A stretch of 64,000 nucleotides of DNA from Bradyrhizobium sp. 186 (lineage in GTDB: Bacteria > Pseudomonadota > Alphaproteobacteria > Rhizobiales > Xanthobacteraceae), in contig NZ_CP082164.1 in assembly GCF_023101685.1 (NCBI RefSeq), positions 7,750,001 through 7,814,000 on the forward strand, read 5' to 3'. Below, in pieces: positions 3,958-8,957 of this stretch. The notes under the pieces were generated by a model. That model saw nothing but the letters and a program-made list of their open reading frames with translations, searched no databases and had not been told where the DNA came from. Both the position numbers and the translations under genes were made by a program. Position 1 is the stretch's first letter, and the number at the start of each line of letters is the position of its first letter.

Positions 3958-4086
3958 AACACCGGCCTCCTGCCTGACGGGGGTTAAGGCAAAGTCAATG
4001 GTTCCGCAGCCCTTGCCGCATCCCCGTCCAGTTTCTATTGTCTTTGCATCAGAATAGCCCTTCCGGGGCAAATATTGGAGACCGGC

Positions 4087-5094
4087 GTGGCCGTCATCGT
4101 ACCTTTCGAAACTCCCGGCGCGTCGATCGAAGAGCTGGTTGCCCTTGTCGCTCCCGACATGGAGCGCGTCAACGCGACGATTTTGTCGCGGACCGGGTCC
4201 GAGGTGACCATGATCCCGGATGTGGCCAACCATTTGATCTCCTCCGGGGGAAAACGCCTGCGGCCGATGCTGACGCTCGCCATGGCGAACCTCGCCGGCT
4301 ACACCGGCGACGGCCACATCAAGCTGGCCGCCTCCGTCGAATTCATGCACACCGCAACGCTCCTGCACGACGACGTCGTCGACGAGAGCGAGATGCGCCG
4401 GGGCAAGCTCTCGGCGCGCATGCTCTGGGGCAACGAGGCGAGCGTGCTGGTCGGCGACTTCCTGCTCGGCCAGGCCTTTCGCATGATGGTCGAGGTCGGC
4501 TCGCTCCGGGCGCTCGACATCCTCTCCGCGGCCGCCGCGACCATCGCCGAGGGCGAGGTGATGCAGCTTGCCGCCGCCAAGAACACCGCGACCACCGAGG
4601 ACGAATATCTCGCCGTGATCCGCGGCAAGACCGCCGAGCTGTTCGCGGCCGCCTGCGAGGTCGGGCCCGTGATCGGCAACCGCCCGAAGGCGGAGCAGAC
4701 CGCCTGCCGCTCGGTCGGCATGAATCTCGGCATCGCCTTCCAGCTCGTCGACGACGTGCTCGACTATGGCGGCAAGAGCGCAAAGCTCGGCAAGAACACC
4801 GGCGACGATTTCCGCGAAGGCAAAATCACACTGCCGGTGGTGCTCGCCTTCCGCCGCGGCAATGACACCGAGCGCGCCTTCTGGATCCGGGCGCTCGAAC
4901 GCGGCGAGATCGGCGACGGCGATCTCGATCACGCCATCGGGCTGATGAACAAGCACCGCACCCTCGAGGACACGCTCAGCCGCGCCCAGCACTACGGCGC
5001 CATGGCGGTCGACGCGCTCGCGCTGTTCCCGTCCTCGCCGATGAAGAGCGCGCTGGAGCAGGTCGTGGCGTTCTGCCTGGCGCGGTCGCATTAG
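4087..5094 (+). CDS. ispB: Polyprenyl (octaprenyl-type) diphosphate synthase
   Basis: This trans-prenyltransferase (335 aa) extends farnesyl diphosphate with IPP to make the long side chain of ubiquinone. Both aspartate-rich motifs are present: HDDVVDE near residues 94-100 and QLVDDVLDY in the C-terminal half. GGKRLRPML and the GKTAELF region are also present. The frame allows a TTG at 4075, but the GTG at 4087 (MAVIVPFETPG) has GGAG six bases upstream and is preferred. Chain length cannot be set from sequence alone; the decaprenyl form is usual in alphaproteobacteria. Confidence 0.88.
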   Translation: MAVIVPFETPGASIEELVALVAPDMERVNATILSRTGSEVTMIPDVANHLISSGGKRLRPMLTLAMANLAGYTGDGHIKLAASVEFMHTATLLHDDVVDESEMRRGKLSARMLWGNEASVLVGDFLLGQAFRMMVEVGSLRALDILSAAAATIAEGEVMQLAAAKNTATTEDEYLAVIRGKTAELFAAACEVGPVIGNRPKAEQTACRSVGMNLGIAFQLVDDVLDYGGKSAKLGKNTGDDFREGKITLPVVLAFRRGNDTERAFWIRALERGEIGDGDLDHAIGLMNKHRTLEDTLSRAQHYGAMAVDALALFPSSPMKSALEQVVAFCLARSH

Positions 5095-5188
5095 GTCTTC
5101 GCGTTACTTCGGTACACTGCCTGCACATCCGCGTCGTCCCGGCGAAGGCGGACGACGTTGTTGAGATAGCACCCCACTGCATCAACAC

Positions 5189-5206
5189 CGTCATTGCGCA
5201 GCGAAG
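5189..5206. repeat. Left fragment of a palindromic repeat interrupted by the IS element
   Basis: The 18 bases starting cgtcattgcg and ending cagcgaag are the start of the repeat whose remainder lies at 6980-7037 beyond the insertion sequence. The other arm of the palindrome (ctggattgcttcgctgcgctcgcaatgacg in two pieces at 7008-7037) predicts that caatccag should follow directly. That sequence is found at the far side of the element. Confidence 0.75.
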
Positions 5207-5210
5207 ATTC

Positions 5211-5222
5211 CATGGGGAGTGG
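5211..5222 (+). repeat. Left subterminal inverted repeat of the IS element
   Basis: Reads catggggagtgg. Its reverse complement matches 6964-6975 at 10 of 12 positions. It begins four bases inside the left boundary. Confidence 0.7.
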
Positions 5223-5281
5223 ATAGCGACCAGGTCTGAGGCCAGACTGAGGTTGCTGACCCCCTCAACCTGGAGACGACG

Positions 5282-6463
5282 ATGTTGCTCGATCATCCTT
5301 CCGACGGACCGACCGCTATCCGCACGCAGTTTGGCGCAATTTTTGTGTCTTTGGAACTGAGCCGTTCGACGTGGGTGATTACGTCACTTTCGCCTGGTAC
5401 GGGCGAGAAGATGTCCAGGCACAGCGTCACGGCCGGCGATACGGCTGAGCTGATGAAGCTGTTTGCGGAACTCAGGCGCAAGGCGGAGGCCAGGACCCGC
5501 GAGAGCTATCCGATCATCACGATCCAGGAAGCTGGGCTGGACGGGTTCTGGCTGCACCGTGTTCTGCAACAGAACGGCATTGAGAGCCACGTGGTCGATC
5601 CCGCCTCGATTGCGACGTCGCGACGGCGGCGGCGGGCCAAGACTGACAGGCTCGATGGCGAGGCGCTGTTGCGGGCGCTTCTGGCCTACAAGCGCGGCGA
5701 GCCGCGGGTCTGTGCGATGGTGGTTGCGCCCTCGCCTGAAGAGGAGGACCGGCGCAGGCTGTGTCGCGAACGAGCGACGCTGATCGCCGAGCGCATCACG
5801 CATGTGAACCGGATCAAGGGTCTTCTGTTCGCGCAGGGGATATCCGACTACGTGCCGCTGCGGCGCAATCGGCGGGCGCGGCTTGAGGCCTTGCGCACGG
5901 GCGACGGGCGGGAGCTGCCTTCGCATTTGAAGGCGCAGATCGGCCGCGAGCTCGATCGGGTCGAACTGCTTCTGGAACAGATCAAGGCGGTCGAGGCCGC
6001 GCGAGATGCTCTGCTGGCCGCAGCCCGGAAGCCTGCAGACAAGAACGCTGCAGACAAGGTCGCGCCGGATCCGGTGGCGATGCTGCTGGCCTTGAAAGGG
6101 CTCGGCGCCAACTTTGCGGCCGTGCTCTGGTCGGAGGCGTTCTACCGGCAGTTCTCCAACCGCCGCCAGGTCGCCGCCTATGCGGGGCTTGCGGCGACGC
6201 CGTGGCAAAGCGGAGGCATCCGGCACGAGCAGGGCGTGTCGAAGGCCGGCAATCCCAGGCTGCGGACCACAATGATCCAGCTCGCCTGGCTGTGGATACG
6301 TCACCAGCCGCAGTCGGCCCTGACGCGCTGGTTCAAGGAGCGAAGCCCGCAAGGCCGCAAGCGCGCGATCGTGGCGCTGGCGCGCAAGCTTCTCGTGACC
6401 TTGTGGAAGTATGTCACCGCGGGCGAGACCATCGAGGGGGCCGTGATGAAGCCCGCCGCCTGA
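5282..6463 (+). CDS. IS110-family transposase (RNA-guided DEDD recombinase type)
   Basis: This 393-aa protein has the IS110 two-domain plan: an N-terminal RuvC-like domain (about residues 18-170), a helical linker, and the C-terminal Transposase_20 domain (about 260-370). Acidic motifs are FVSLELS (Glu25 where the family usually has Asp), IQEAGLDGF and AKTDRLDGEAL. The C-terminal domain carries YAGLAATPWQSGG and GVSKAGNPRLRT; the serine in WQSGG is the likely nucleophile position. GGAG lies six bases before the ATG. Close relatives are common in Bradyrhizobium, from memory. No frameshift or truncation is seen. Confidence 0.92.
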   Translation: MLLDHPSDGPTAIRTQFGAIFVSLELSRSTWVITSLSPGTGEKMSRHSVTAGDTAELMKLFAELRRKAEARTRESYPIITIQEAGLDGFWLHRVLQQNGIESHVVDPASIATSRRRRRAKTDRLDGEALLRALLAYKRGEPRVCAMVVAPSPEEEDRRRLCRERATLIAERITHVNRIKGLLFAQGISDYVPLRRNRRARLEALRTGDGRELPSHLKAQIGRELDRVELLLEQIKAVEAARDALLAAARKPADKNAADKVAPDPVAMLLALKGLGANFAAVLWSEAFYRQFSNRRQVAAYAGLAATPWQSGGIRHEQGVSKAGNPRLRTTMIQLAWLWIRHQPQSALTRWFKERSPQGRKRAIVALARKLLVTLWKYVTAGETIEGAVMKPAA

Positions 6464-6527
6464 TCCGGACCGCACCAAGCGGCGTGCTTCGCCGCCCGCG
6501 CGCAACGAAAGAACCATAACCCATCTG

Positions 6528-6705
6528 CCGAGGCCCGATCAGTCTCGGAAGATCCGGGTGGACGAACCGATGGATTGCATGGCTTCAAACGCCGCAACGA
6601 AGAATGGCCTCGTCCTCTCGAGCCTGCCCGCCGCAAGCGGAATCGTGGTGCAGTCGCCTTGTGCGACGACCGAATGTGAGTTTGATCTGGCAAGCAACCC
6701 AGATC
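6528..6705 (+). ncRNA. Candidate bridge RNA (seekRNA) of the IS element
   Basis: A ~178-nt segment downstream of the transposase folds by eye into four parts. (1) A 5' hairpin ccgag/ctcgg (6528-6548). (2) A loop closed by ggacga/tcgtcc (6560-6565 with 6610-6615). It contains tggattgc (6571-6578), the reverse complement of the target right of the core, and gcaacgaag (6594-6602), an 8/9 match to the target left of the core. (3) A second loop containing ggaatc (6639-6644), the reverse complement of the left element end, and atgtgag (6674-6680), identical to the right element end, around the hairpin gtcgc/gcgac. (4) A closing hairpin gatctgg/ccagatc (6684-6705). This mirrors the target-loop/donor-loop plan known for IS110-family guide RNAs. 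Exact ends are unknown. Confidence 0.62.
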
Positions 6706-6963
6706 GTCGAACCGGCTCGACCCTTGGATCGCAAATGCGAGGATGGCAGATGCCCTGACAGAACCGCCAACGCGAGGAGCTCCTATCGGCCCAACGCACC
6801 AAGCATGATGGCGTGCTCGCTCAACTCAAGGCCAAGCCGCTTCGCGGCGGCCCTAACAGGCCGGCCTTGACTTGATCTGCGCGCGCCATCCTGCAGAACC
6901 CGCGGTCGGGACGAAGAGGTGGCTGCAGTCGAACAAAAAGGTGACTGCTCATCCTTGACATAC
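6706..6963. other. Remaining right non-coding end of the IS element
   Basis: About 260 bp inside the element between the candidate guide RNA and the right inverted repeat. It has no convincing ORF. One inverted-repeat stretch (aaggcc ... ggcctt, about 6830-6869) could fold. I see no function beyond forming part of the element end. Confidence 0.5.
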
Positions 6964-6975
6964 ACATTCCCCATG
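6964..6975 (-). repeat. Right subterminal inverted repeat of the IS element
   Basis: Reads acattccccatg on the plus strand, pairing with 5211-5222 (10 of 12). It ends four bases before the right boundary AG core. Confidence 0.7.
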
Positions 6976-6979
6976 TGAG

Positions 6980-7037
6980 CAATCCAGAAACTTTCCGCGG
7001 CGGCAGACTGGATTGCTTCGCTGCGCTCGCAATGACG
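6980..7037. repeat. Right part of the palindromic repeat split by the IS element
   Basis: Starts caatccagaaac and ends with the arm that is complementary to 5189-5206 plus the first bases of this segment. Together the two parts rebuild a ~75-bp hairpin-forming repeat, with a four-base length difference between the arms. Confidence 0.75.
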
Positions 7038-7140
7038 GCGCGATGTGCACGAGCGCCTCCACTTACATTCCAACTCGGAGCCGCAGTTTCGCATGCTTGC
7101 GGCATATCTCCGCAAGCGCCCGGAGCTGTCAGTTCGAGTG

Positions 7141-7157
7141 ACTTGCATTTTGCAAGT
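7141..7157. promoter_or_regulatory. Perfect dyad, likely operator for the HxlR regulator
   Basis: ACTTGCA-TTT-TGCAAGT is a perfect 7-bp inverted repeat ending 20 bases before the HxlR-family start codon. Its position suggests autoregulation, since HxlR proteins bind short dyads near their own promoters. The operator role is inferred. Confidence 0.55.
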
Positions 7158-7177
7158 AACATGACTAGCTTGACCTC

Positions 7178-7693
7178 ATGCAGCCCAAATCCGCCTCCAT
7201 CATGGAATGCCCGGTCGGCCGCGCTGTGGAAACGGTCGGCGAATGGTGGAGCATCCTGATCCTGCGGGATGCGTTTCAGGGTGCGACGCACTTTGATGAG
7301 TTCGAGCAAAGCCTCGGGATCGCGCCGAACATCCTGTCGCGGCGCCTCGCCCATCTCACCGAGACCGGCATGTTCGTTCGCCGCCGCTACAGCGAGCGGC
7401 CGCCGCGCCACGAATATGTGCTGACGCCGAAAGCACGAGATTTCTTCCCCGTGATCGCGACGCTGCTCGCCTGGGGCAACAGGCATCTCGCGCCAAAGGG
7501 CGAAGCCATCGTGCTGGCGAACCGGGACGATAGTCGTCCGCTCGATCCGGTCGTGGTCGACGCCATCGACATGCATCCGATCACGCTCGCCAACGCAGTC
7601 GTCATTCCCGGTCCGCGCGCAAGCCGCGGCATGCGCCGGCGGCTCGCTTCGCTCAAGGCCATGAACCCGGCCGTTGCGCCGGCTGGAGAATGA
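7178..7693 (+). CDS. HxlR-family transcriptional regulator
   Basis: This 171-aa winged-helix protein has the HxlR signature: MECPVGRAVETVGEWWSILILRD, with a conserved cysteine near the N-terminus, then FEQSLGIAPNILSRRLAHL and a PRHEYVLTPKARDF wing. Members often sense electrophiles or oxidants through the cysteine. It is longer than the usual 110-130 aa because of a C-terminal extension of about 60 residues without recognised motifs. It ends one base before the FabF-like start codon, so the two are one transcription unit. The dyad at 7141-7157 is its probable operator. Confidence 0.87.
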   Translation: MQPKSASIMECPVGRAVETVGEWWSILILRDAFQGATHFDEFEQSLGIAPNILSRRLAHLTETGMFVRRRYSERPPRHEYVLTPKARDFFPVIATLLAWGNRHLAPKGEAIVLANRDDSRPLDPVVVDAIDMHPITLANAVVIPGPRASRGMRRRLASLKAMNPAVAPAGE

Positions 7694-7694
7694 C

Positions 7695-8957
7695 ATGCGT
7701 CGTATCGTCGTGACGGGAATGGGCGCGGTGTCGCCGCTCGGCTGCGGTGTCGAACTCGCCTGGCGCCGGCTGCTCGCCGGCCAGAGCGGGCTGCGGGCCC
7801 TGCCCGAATGGTCGCAGGCGTTGCCGGCACGCATTGCCGGTCTCGTGCCCGACAAGGCCGATGACATCGAAGGCGGCTTTGACGCGGCGCAGGCAGCCGC
7901 GCCAAAAGATCAGCGCAAGATGGACCGCTTCATCCTGTTTGCGCTGCTCGCCGCCGCCGAGGCGATCGCACAGGCCAAGTGGGCGCCGCAGGATACGGAA
8001 GCGCTGGAACGGACCGCGACGATCATCGCCTCCGGCGTCGGCGGCTTCCCGGCGATGGTGGAAGCGGTGCGCACCACCGACCAGCGCGGCGTGCGGCGGC
8101 TGTCGCCATTCACCATCCCCTCGTTCCTCGCCAATCTCGCCGCCGGTCACGTCTCGATCAAATACGGCTACAAGGGACCGCTGGGAACGCCGGTCACGGC
8201 CTGCGCCGCCGGCGTCCAGGCGATCGGCGACGCCGCGCGCATGATCCGCGCCGGCGAAATCGATGTTGCGATCTGCGGCGGCGCCGAGGCCTGCATCGAT
8301 CTCGTCAGTCTCGGCGGTTTCGCGGCGGCGCGCGCGCTGTCGAGCGGGTGCAACGACGAGCCCACGCGCGCATCGCGCCCGTTCGATCGCGACCGCGACG
8401 GCTTTGTCATGGGGGAAGGCGCGGGCATTGTGGTGATCGAGGAGCTCGAACACGCGCTCGCCCGCGGCGCCTCACCGATCGCCGAAATCGTAGGATACGG
8501 CACGACGGCGGACGCCTATCACATGACGTCGGGTCCGCCGGATGGCGACGGCGCCCGCCGTGCCATGGAGATTGCGCTCCAACAGGCGCGGCTTGCGCCC
8601 GGTGACTTGCAGCACCTGAATGCTCATGCAACCTCGACGCCGGCCGGCGACGAAGGCGAGCTTGGCGCCATCGCCGCGCTGTTCGGCCGCGACCGCAGCA
8701 TTGCGGTGAGCGCGACGAAATCGGCCACCGGTCATCTGCTCGGCGCCGCCGGTGGCCTGGAGGCGATCTTCACCGTCCTCGCCCTGCGCGACCAGATCGC
8801 CCCGCCGACGCTCAACCTCGAAAACCCCGATCCCGGCACTGAGGGCATCGACATCGTCTCCGGCGCGGCCCGGCCGATGCCGATGCAGCACGCCATCTCG
8901 AACGGTTTTGGCTTCGGCGGGGTGAATGCCAGCGTGATCTTCCGCCGGTTCGGCTAG
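7695..8957 (+). CDS. Beta-ketoacyl-ACP synthase II-like (FabF family)
   Basis: This is a condensing enzyme of 420 aa that would extend acyl chains with malonyl-ACP. The N-terminus is IVVTGMGAVSPLGCG. The active-site cysteine is Cys170 in VTACAAGVQ, and the two catalytic histidines are in NAHATSTPAGD and TKSATGHLLGAAGG. The C-terminus has NGFGFGGVNASVIF. The start at 7695 has GGAG six bases upstream; the frame stays open for seven more codons. No acyl carrier or fab genes are adjacent, so it is a paralogue outside the main fatty acid cluster, possibly for a specialised lipid. It is probably controlled by the HxlR gene just upstream. Confidence 0.87.
   Translation: MRRIVVTGMGAVSPLGCGVELAWRRLLAGQSGLRALPEWSQALPARIAGLVPDKADDIEGGFDAAQAAAPKDQRKMDRFILFALLAAAEAIAQAKWAPQDTEALERTATIIASGVGGFPAMVEAVRTTDQRGVRRLSPFTIPSFLANLAAGHVSIKYGYKGPLGTPVTACAAGVQAIGDAARMIRAGEIDVAICGGAEACIDLVSLGGFAAARALSSGCNDEPTRASRPFDRDRDGFVMGEGAGIVVIEELEHALARGASPIAEIVGYGTTADAYHMTSGPPDGDGARRAMEIALQQARLAPGDLQHLNAHATSTPAGDEGELGAIAALFGRDRSIAVSATKSATGHLLGAAGGLEAIFTVLALRDQIAPPTLNLENPDPGTEGIDIVSGAARPMPMQHAISNGFGFGGVNASVIFRRFG

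Follow-up and report, generated by a model that had tools for sequence, protein, structure and literature searches.

A candidate bridge RNA with target and donor guides in an IS1111-type insertion sequence at REP-like palindromes of Bradyrhizobium sp. 186

The seekRNA elements ISEc11, ISPa11 and ISKpn4 are characterized by a non-coding region downstream of the transposase gene, subterminal inverted repeats with 7-nt and 3-nt extensions, and a guide order in which the top-strand match lies 5' of the bottom-strand match (PMC11187229). The bridge RNA of IS621 and the IS110 group likewise pairs through two loops with both target and donor strands around a dinucleotide core, but in the IS110 group the RNA lies upstream, the guide order is reversed and the core of IS621 is CT (PMC11208160, PMC11208158). 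That the IS110 family targets REPs was published as early as 2006 (PMC1525189), and ISPa11 also targets REPs (PMC11187229). Guides are already reported to have been redirected in nature between ISEc11 and ISXne4 and between ISEc21 and ISMch6 (PMC11187229), and to covary in relatives of IS621 (PMC11208160), so the guide principle itself is not new.

Here we describe an element from a 64,000-nt stretch (hereafter the window) of the genome of Bradyrhizobium sp. 186, which is very probably an insertion sequence of the IS1111 type in which non-coding DNA downstream of the transposase gene gives rise to a bridge RNA (seekRNA) that guides insertion. To this recently recognized class of RNA-guided mobile elements it adds a clear new example from a soil bacterium. 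The evidence consists of the position of the RNA, its guides, their covariation with targets and element ends, the conserved stems, and many copies with the same junctions. Among open-licence papers, the matches listed for Bradyrhizobium IS1111 elements at REPs concern, to judge from their listings, Coxiella MITEs and a tick microbiome.

The element runs from one AG core to the other with 1771 nt between them (Table 1), and non-coding DNA flanks the transposase gene asymmetrically, 514 nt downstream vs 75 nt upstream, a feature of the IS1111 group. Its exact inverted repeats (CATGGGGA and TCCCCATG) have the extensions of that group, 7 nt on the left and 3 nt on the right. At 8 bp they are shorter than the usual 11–13 bp given in PMC11187229, but inside the 7–17 bp of PMC11208160. 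The transposase scored above the cut-offs of PF01548, PF02371 and NF033542 ('IS110 family RNA-guided transposase') and retains S310-G311; its 393 residues exceed the 330–350 given for IS1111, which is an observed range rather than a criterion (PMC11187229). Over residues 80–377, its profile aligned with IS4321 (IS1111-type) in 272 columns (prob 98.6), vs 97 columns (prob 5.7) with ISEc21 (IS110-type), with one reference standing for each type; ISShdy1 aligned over 265 columns (prob 98.4). Comparison with solved structures gave significant matches to ISCro4 and IS621 alone, and there only in the C-terminal domain.

Table 1. Features of the element and its flanks (window positions).
Feature	Position	Strand	Remarks
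Left target flank	5191..5206	+	REP-like palindrome half 1; CGAAG = 5202-5206, core AG = 5205-5206
Left element end ATTCC	5207..5211	+	Donor half, read by donor guide 1
Left subterminal inverted repeat CATGGGGA	5211..5218	+	Inverted repeat of 6968-6975; outside by IS1111 convention: 5204-5210 (7 nt)
Transposase, 393 aa, PF01548 + PF02371	5282..6463	+	Putative catalytic E25, E83, D122, D125, S310 by alignment
5' hairpin	6525..6551	+	7/8 pairs changed on both sides
Target-binding stem-loop	6556..6619	+	Stem 6556-6568 with 6606-6619; 7/11 stem pairs changed on both sides
Target guide 1	6571..6578	+	Complement of CAATCCA right of core, plus core G
Terminal hairpin of target-binding stem-loop	6581-6583 with 6591-6593	+	
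Target guide 2	6596..6602	+	AACGA (5 nt) + core AG; left-target sense, i.e. pairs with bottom strand
Donor guide 1 GGAATC	6639..6644	+	Complement of left element end
Donor hairpin	6647..6671	+	GGT 6647-6649 with ACC 6669-6671; stem 6653-6657 with 6663-6667, 4/5 pairs changed on both sides
Donor guide 2 ATGTGAG	6674..6680	+	Same as right element end + core
TTGACA	6955..6960	+	Probable -35 half of a promoter that would form when the circle closes (inferred); conserved in relatives
Right subterminal inverted repeat TCCCCATG	6968..6975	+	Outside: 6976-6978 (3 nt)
Right core AG 6978-6979 + right target CAATCCA 6980-6986	6978..6986	+	19/20 own-genome right flanks outside the element read AGCAATCCAG
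REP-like palindrome half 2, interrupted (ctggattgcttcgctgcgctcgcaatga)	7008..7035	+	CTGGATTG (≤ 1 mismatch) in 19/21 own-genome right flanks

The candidate bridge RNA spans about 6525–6707, and the first-pass annotation had read four guide segments in its two internal loops. In the first loop, TGGATTGC (6571–6578) is indeed the exact reverse complement of 6979–6986, and GCAACGAAG (6594–6602) matches 5198–5206 at eight of nine positions, though the length of this second guide had been overstated, as the relatives described below revealed. Both donor segments were read correctly: GGAATC is the reverse complement of 5206–5211, and ATGTGAG is identical to 6973–6979. When random 178-mers were drawn from a first-order Markov chain of the RNA itself, the first, third and fourth matches arose by chance in 0.5%, 10.8% and 2.6% of 100,000 trials, respectively, and the second in 4.8% of 20,000; all four occurred jointly in 0 of 100,000. 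The donor matches are individually weak, and the case rests on the relatives. Searches of known RNA and defence families added nothing: Rfam gave no family above threshold for 4000–8500 (only radC, sub-threshold at 20.6 bits vs 40), and PADLOC gave no match.

That the two loops present their guides in the opposite order to IS621 had been guessed to be a trait of the IS1111 subgroup. The guess was right, since this order, with the top-strand match (6571–6578) 5' of the bottom-strand match (6596–6602), is the one published for IS1111 seekRNAs, ISEc11, ISPa11 and ISKpn4 among them (PMC11187229), and the guides of relatives, read at the same places of the scaffold, match their targets on the sides that this order implies.

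Structural support for the RNA is covariation, not energy. Folded as a single sequence, the window RNA was no more stable than its shuffles (z −0.32). In contrast, the structure proposed at first pass proved to be conserved across related elements with compensatory changes: in a manual model 19 of 30 pairs had changed on both sides, and RNAalifold, applied to 43 distinct RNAs, returned 27 pairs of which 17 had done so. The 30-pair model contained 122 covarying cells vs 35.5 in shuffles (0 of 500 reached the real value), while slid controls gave 13–45. The two models close the donor hairpin differently, by GGT-ACC in the manual model and by CGG-CCG in the one that RNAalifold favoured; as the GGT-ACC pairs show no changes on both sides, covariation says nothing on them.

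To compare guides with insertion sites we drew on relatives whose transposases are about 54–100% identical. Thirty loci were taken from a set of 265 genomes of the genus, in which 87 had a match, and a scan of genome contigs supplied 80 (of 87 loci, the rest being dropped), with overlap between the two sets. A scaffold search placed both target guides in 85 rows, or 84 including the window once a spurious row (L053) was excluded. Element ends were then located through the donor-guide motif and the inverted repeats, with the target guides left unused, which yielded usable ends in 70 of 84 rows on the right and 70 of 84 on the left. The dropped rows had an ambiguous right end (L077), a contig end or N at the flank, or no end found; the left ends of L102 and L111 look miscalled, yet were kept in the counts, and the second guide of L111 comprises four letters only.

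Within the conserved scaffold the target guides of these relatives are hypervariable, and they track the flanks. The two outcomes that the first-pass annotation had named as refuting, a lack of conserved structure and guides that vary independently of the insertion sites, were thus looked for and not found. The right guide matched its own flank at 176 of 231 positions over 33 distinct guides, vs a shuffled mean of 64 (sd 8.4, maximum 102), and the left guide at 153 of 210 positions over 35 distinct guides, vs 54.8 (sd 7.2, maximum 84). None of 20,000 shuffles of guides among elements equalled the real match on either side; taking one representative per distinct guide was the sole handling of relatedness in this comparison. 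Allowing a one-base shift of register raised the right-hand match to 206 of 231, vs 94.8 when shuffled (sd 7.1, maximum 128).

The same comparison delimits the guides. Among 34 distinct six-letter second guides, positions −5 to −1 matched in 23, 26, 32, 33 and 32 cases, while −6 matched in only seven, near chance; the second guide is therefore 6596–6600 plus the core AG at 6601–6602, and not nine bases. For the first guide, positions +1 to +7 matched in 28, 23, 22, 24, 24, 24 and 18 of 31 cases, vs only 6 of 31 at +8. The left core was AG in 34 of 35, although the search pattern did not require it, and guide 1 can pair with the core G as well, the base opposite being C (20 of 33), U (12) or G (1). 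Individual fits vary. On the right, five of the 33 cases (L032, L070, L072, L087, L119) need a one-base shift, three (L042, L067, L125) match at 5/7, and L076 and L091 fit poorly at 3/7, while L092, which has the guide of L091, matches at 7/7. ISRel9 (L169), named in a plasmid record of Rhizobium sp. N731, has a transposase 69.6% identical to that of the window and the same RNA scaffold with different guides; its left flank matches its second guide at 5/6, but its right flank matches the first at only 4/7.

For the donor guides, too, the evidence presented here is covariation; the Results of PMC11187229 deal with target matches. In 40 non-redundant elements, donor guide 1 and the left end combined as GGAAT-ATTCC (11), GGGAT-ATCCC (14), GGGAT-ATCCT (12), GGGAT-ATTCC (2) and GGAAT-ATCCG (1; L102, whose end is probably wrong). 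The left-end search pattern fixed most of the letters compared here and left one position free (C or T), where guide and end read G-C in 26, A-T in 11, G-T in two and A-C in one of the 40.

Could the covariation be an artefact of the alignment, or of an RNA-based choice of element ends? The donor-guide sequence served to find right ends, and a pattern derived from the element described here to find left ends, so that the donor matches are partly built in. Yet the target guides took no part in finding the ends, and shuffling them among elements abolishes the match. In the reverse test, in which the right end was sought by the target guide alone and only then compared with the donor guide, a single best place was found for 56 of the 84 loci (26 gave none and two were ambiguous), and in these 56 donor guide 2, seven bases ending in the core, was present for 26 of 26 distinct guides, variants included (one ATATAAG, two ATATGAG). 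We give an artefact almost no credence and take the guides to covary with both targets and ends. The resulting collection comprises over 30 guide pairs that share one RNA scaffold but are aimed at different sites, donor guides included. As a natural data set on an IS1111-type recombinase, it shows without experiments which guide lengths are likely and which mismatches are tolerated, and such recombinases of plant-associated bacteria are candidates for programmable DNA insertion.

Bradyrhizobium sp. 186 itself carries many copies. A model of the target-loop RNA found 23 places at equal full score and five weaker ones, and a DNA search found 20 full or nearly full copies (L001–L020) plus additional partial rows. 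Most lie in REP-like palindromes. CGAAG stands at the end of every one of the 22 left flanks, and TCATTGCG occurs at ≤ 1 mismatch in 19 of them. Of 21 right ends located (those of L020 and L021 were sought and not found), 20 have a flank outside the element, and 19 of these flanks start with AGCAATCCAG, the exception being L009 with one extra A; the right end of L016 adjoins another copy of the element. Of 21 right flanks examined, 19 contain the second REP half, CTGGATTG, at ≤ 1 mismatch, and L010 and L011 are identical over the first 25 bases of the right flank. All 22 left flanks mismatch the second guide at −4 and/or −5, where the guide has AA and the flanks have AG (15), GA (6) or CG (1), and the sole perfect 14-nt target site found in the genome is unoccupied, as against a total of 63 CGAAGCAATCCAG sites, some being halves of interrupted REPs. 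Both the mismatches and the empty perfect site count against RNA-guided insertion.

Two arrangements among these copies stand apart. At G000:C1:1280618-1283867 a full copy is directly followed by a second one without its first 294 bases (L016/L022), the pair occupying one REP site, which would fit insertion of a copy into a copy and then deletion between the repeated 5' parts. At G000:C1:3617167-3618635 a copy (L023) lacks about 300 internal bases (query positions 111–412) and keeps both ends and the RNA.

Given that REP palindromes are known targets of the IS110 family (PMC1525189) and that the own-genome copies lie mostly within REP-like DNA, the transposase protein might itself read the target from the REP hairpin, with the RNA matches left as remnants of past insertions or shared repeats. 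We consider this very unlikely, as relatives with the same scaffold sit at quite different sites with matching guides (CAGACCA in L028 and L061, GGGTTCT in L035, GACTGGA in L095). A little less probable still is that the RNA acts also, or instead, as an antisense RNA on host transcripts near REP sites: the 63 CGAAGCAATCCAG sites of the genome offer many pairing partners, but guide 1 has only 7–8 nt.

For RNA-guided insertion, the preferred reading, a mechanism can be proposed by analogy with IS621, ISEc11 and their relatives, from which transcription, RNA binding, a circular intermediate, a junction promoter and the exchange of strands by a RuvC-type site together with a serine are all taken. 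RNA from the downstream region would bind the transposase, as in ISEc11 and IS621; its first loop would pair with both sides of the target (the REP-like GCGA-AG-CAATCCA) and its second with the junction at which the two ends of the circle meet (ATGTG-AG-ATTCC). Target and junction would then recombine at the AG core that they share, giving insertion in a single orientation with no extra bases. Formation of the circle would also join a −35 at the right end to a −10 at the left end. In 33 of 35 elements listed, a TTGACA-like hexamer (≤ 1 mismatch) starts 23–25 bases upstream of the point where the right core ends (the others have two and three mismatches), a count of the best match in a 16-base stretch without a shuffle control. 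A promoter scan of 6880–7100 gave no hit, and inspection by eye shows only a weak −10 across the circle junction; the promoter is one that we infer from the conserved TTGAC.

The transposase differs from those of the ISEc11/ISPa11/ISKpn4 group in having Glu for the first Asp of the catalytic DEDD tetrad, which thus reads E-E-D-D by alignment. This Glu was found in 69 of 69 distinct aligned transposases, that of the window included, and likewise in ISRel9, a USDA 135 element and a second element of the own genome; at the position of Glu25, Asp is the residue in IS4321, IS5075 and ISShdy1. By alignment, E25 appears to correspond to D11 of IS621, mutation of which abolishes recombination (PMC11208158). 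Our search of open-licence literature found no paper on IS110 transposases with EEDD and none on ISRel9. These enzymes may form a large clade of active RNA-guided E-E-D-D transposases, mainly of Alphaproteobacteria among the named loci, in which the RNA of the present element tolerates mismatches at −4/−5 so that one guide serves two REP classes; we put this forward tentatively, with slightly more doubt than confidence. The Glu-for-Asp active site offers a test case for how such enzymes hold metal ions.

Among more distant elements, about 45–50% identical, five of them (L045–L047, L049, L051) matched the RNA model at 20.2–27.1 bits (E 0.0007–0.03), L052 and L053 at only 13.7 and 15.3 bits (E 0.9 and 0.4), and L048 and L050 gave no match to it. 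By eye, the ends and flanks of these relatives follow the same rule, as in L045, with guide ACCCGGG and right flank CCCGGGT. Across the genus, 32 of 252 genomes matched the RNA at E ≤ 1e-4.

Some copies of the RNA lie beside only parts of a transposase gene (L155, L156 and L161 among others). Neither L138 nor L162, two candidates for stand-alone RNAs, matches a transposase at 1e-5; since the tail of the reading frame still precedes the RNA in both, we read them as truncated copies, and the left ends of these two were not found.

Bradyrhizobium sp. 186 also harbours the second IS110/IS1111 element mentioned above, in four similar copies (L164–L167, G000:C1 from about 4382000, 4965200, 5396000 and 8857600) with a related RNA of its own. 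The left flanks are GCGGTTTAG in two copies and GCGATTTAG in the other two, and the guide is GCGGTTTAG; the right guide matches the flanks in part only. The right end is CATACAAG, with TTGACA at the usual distance.
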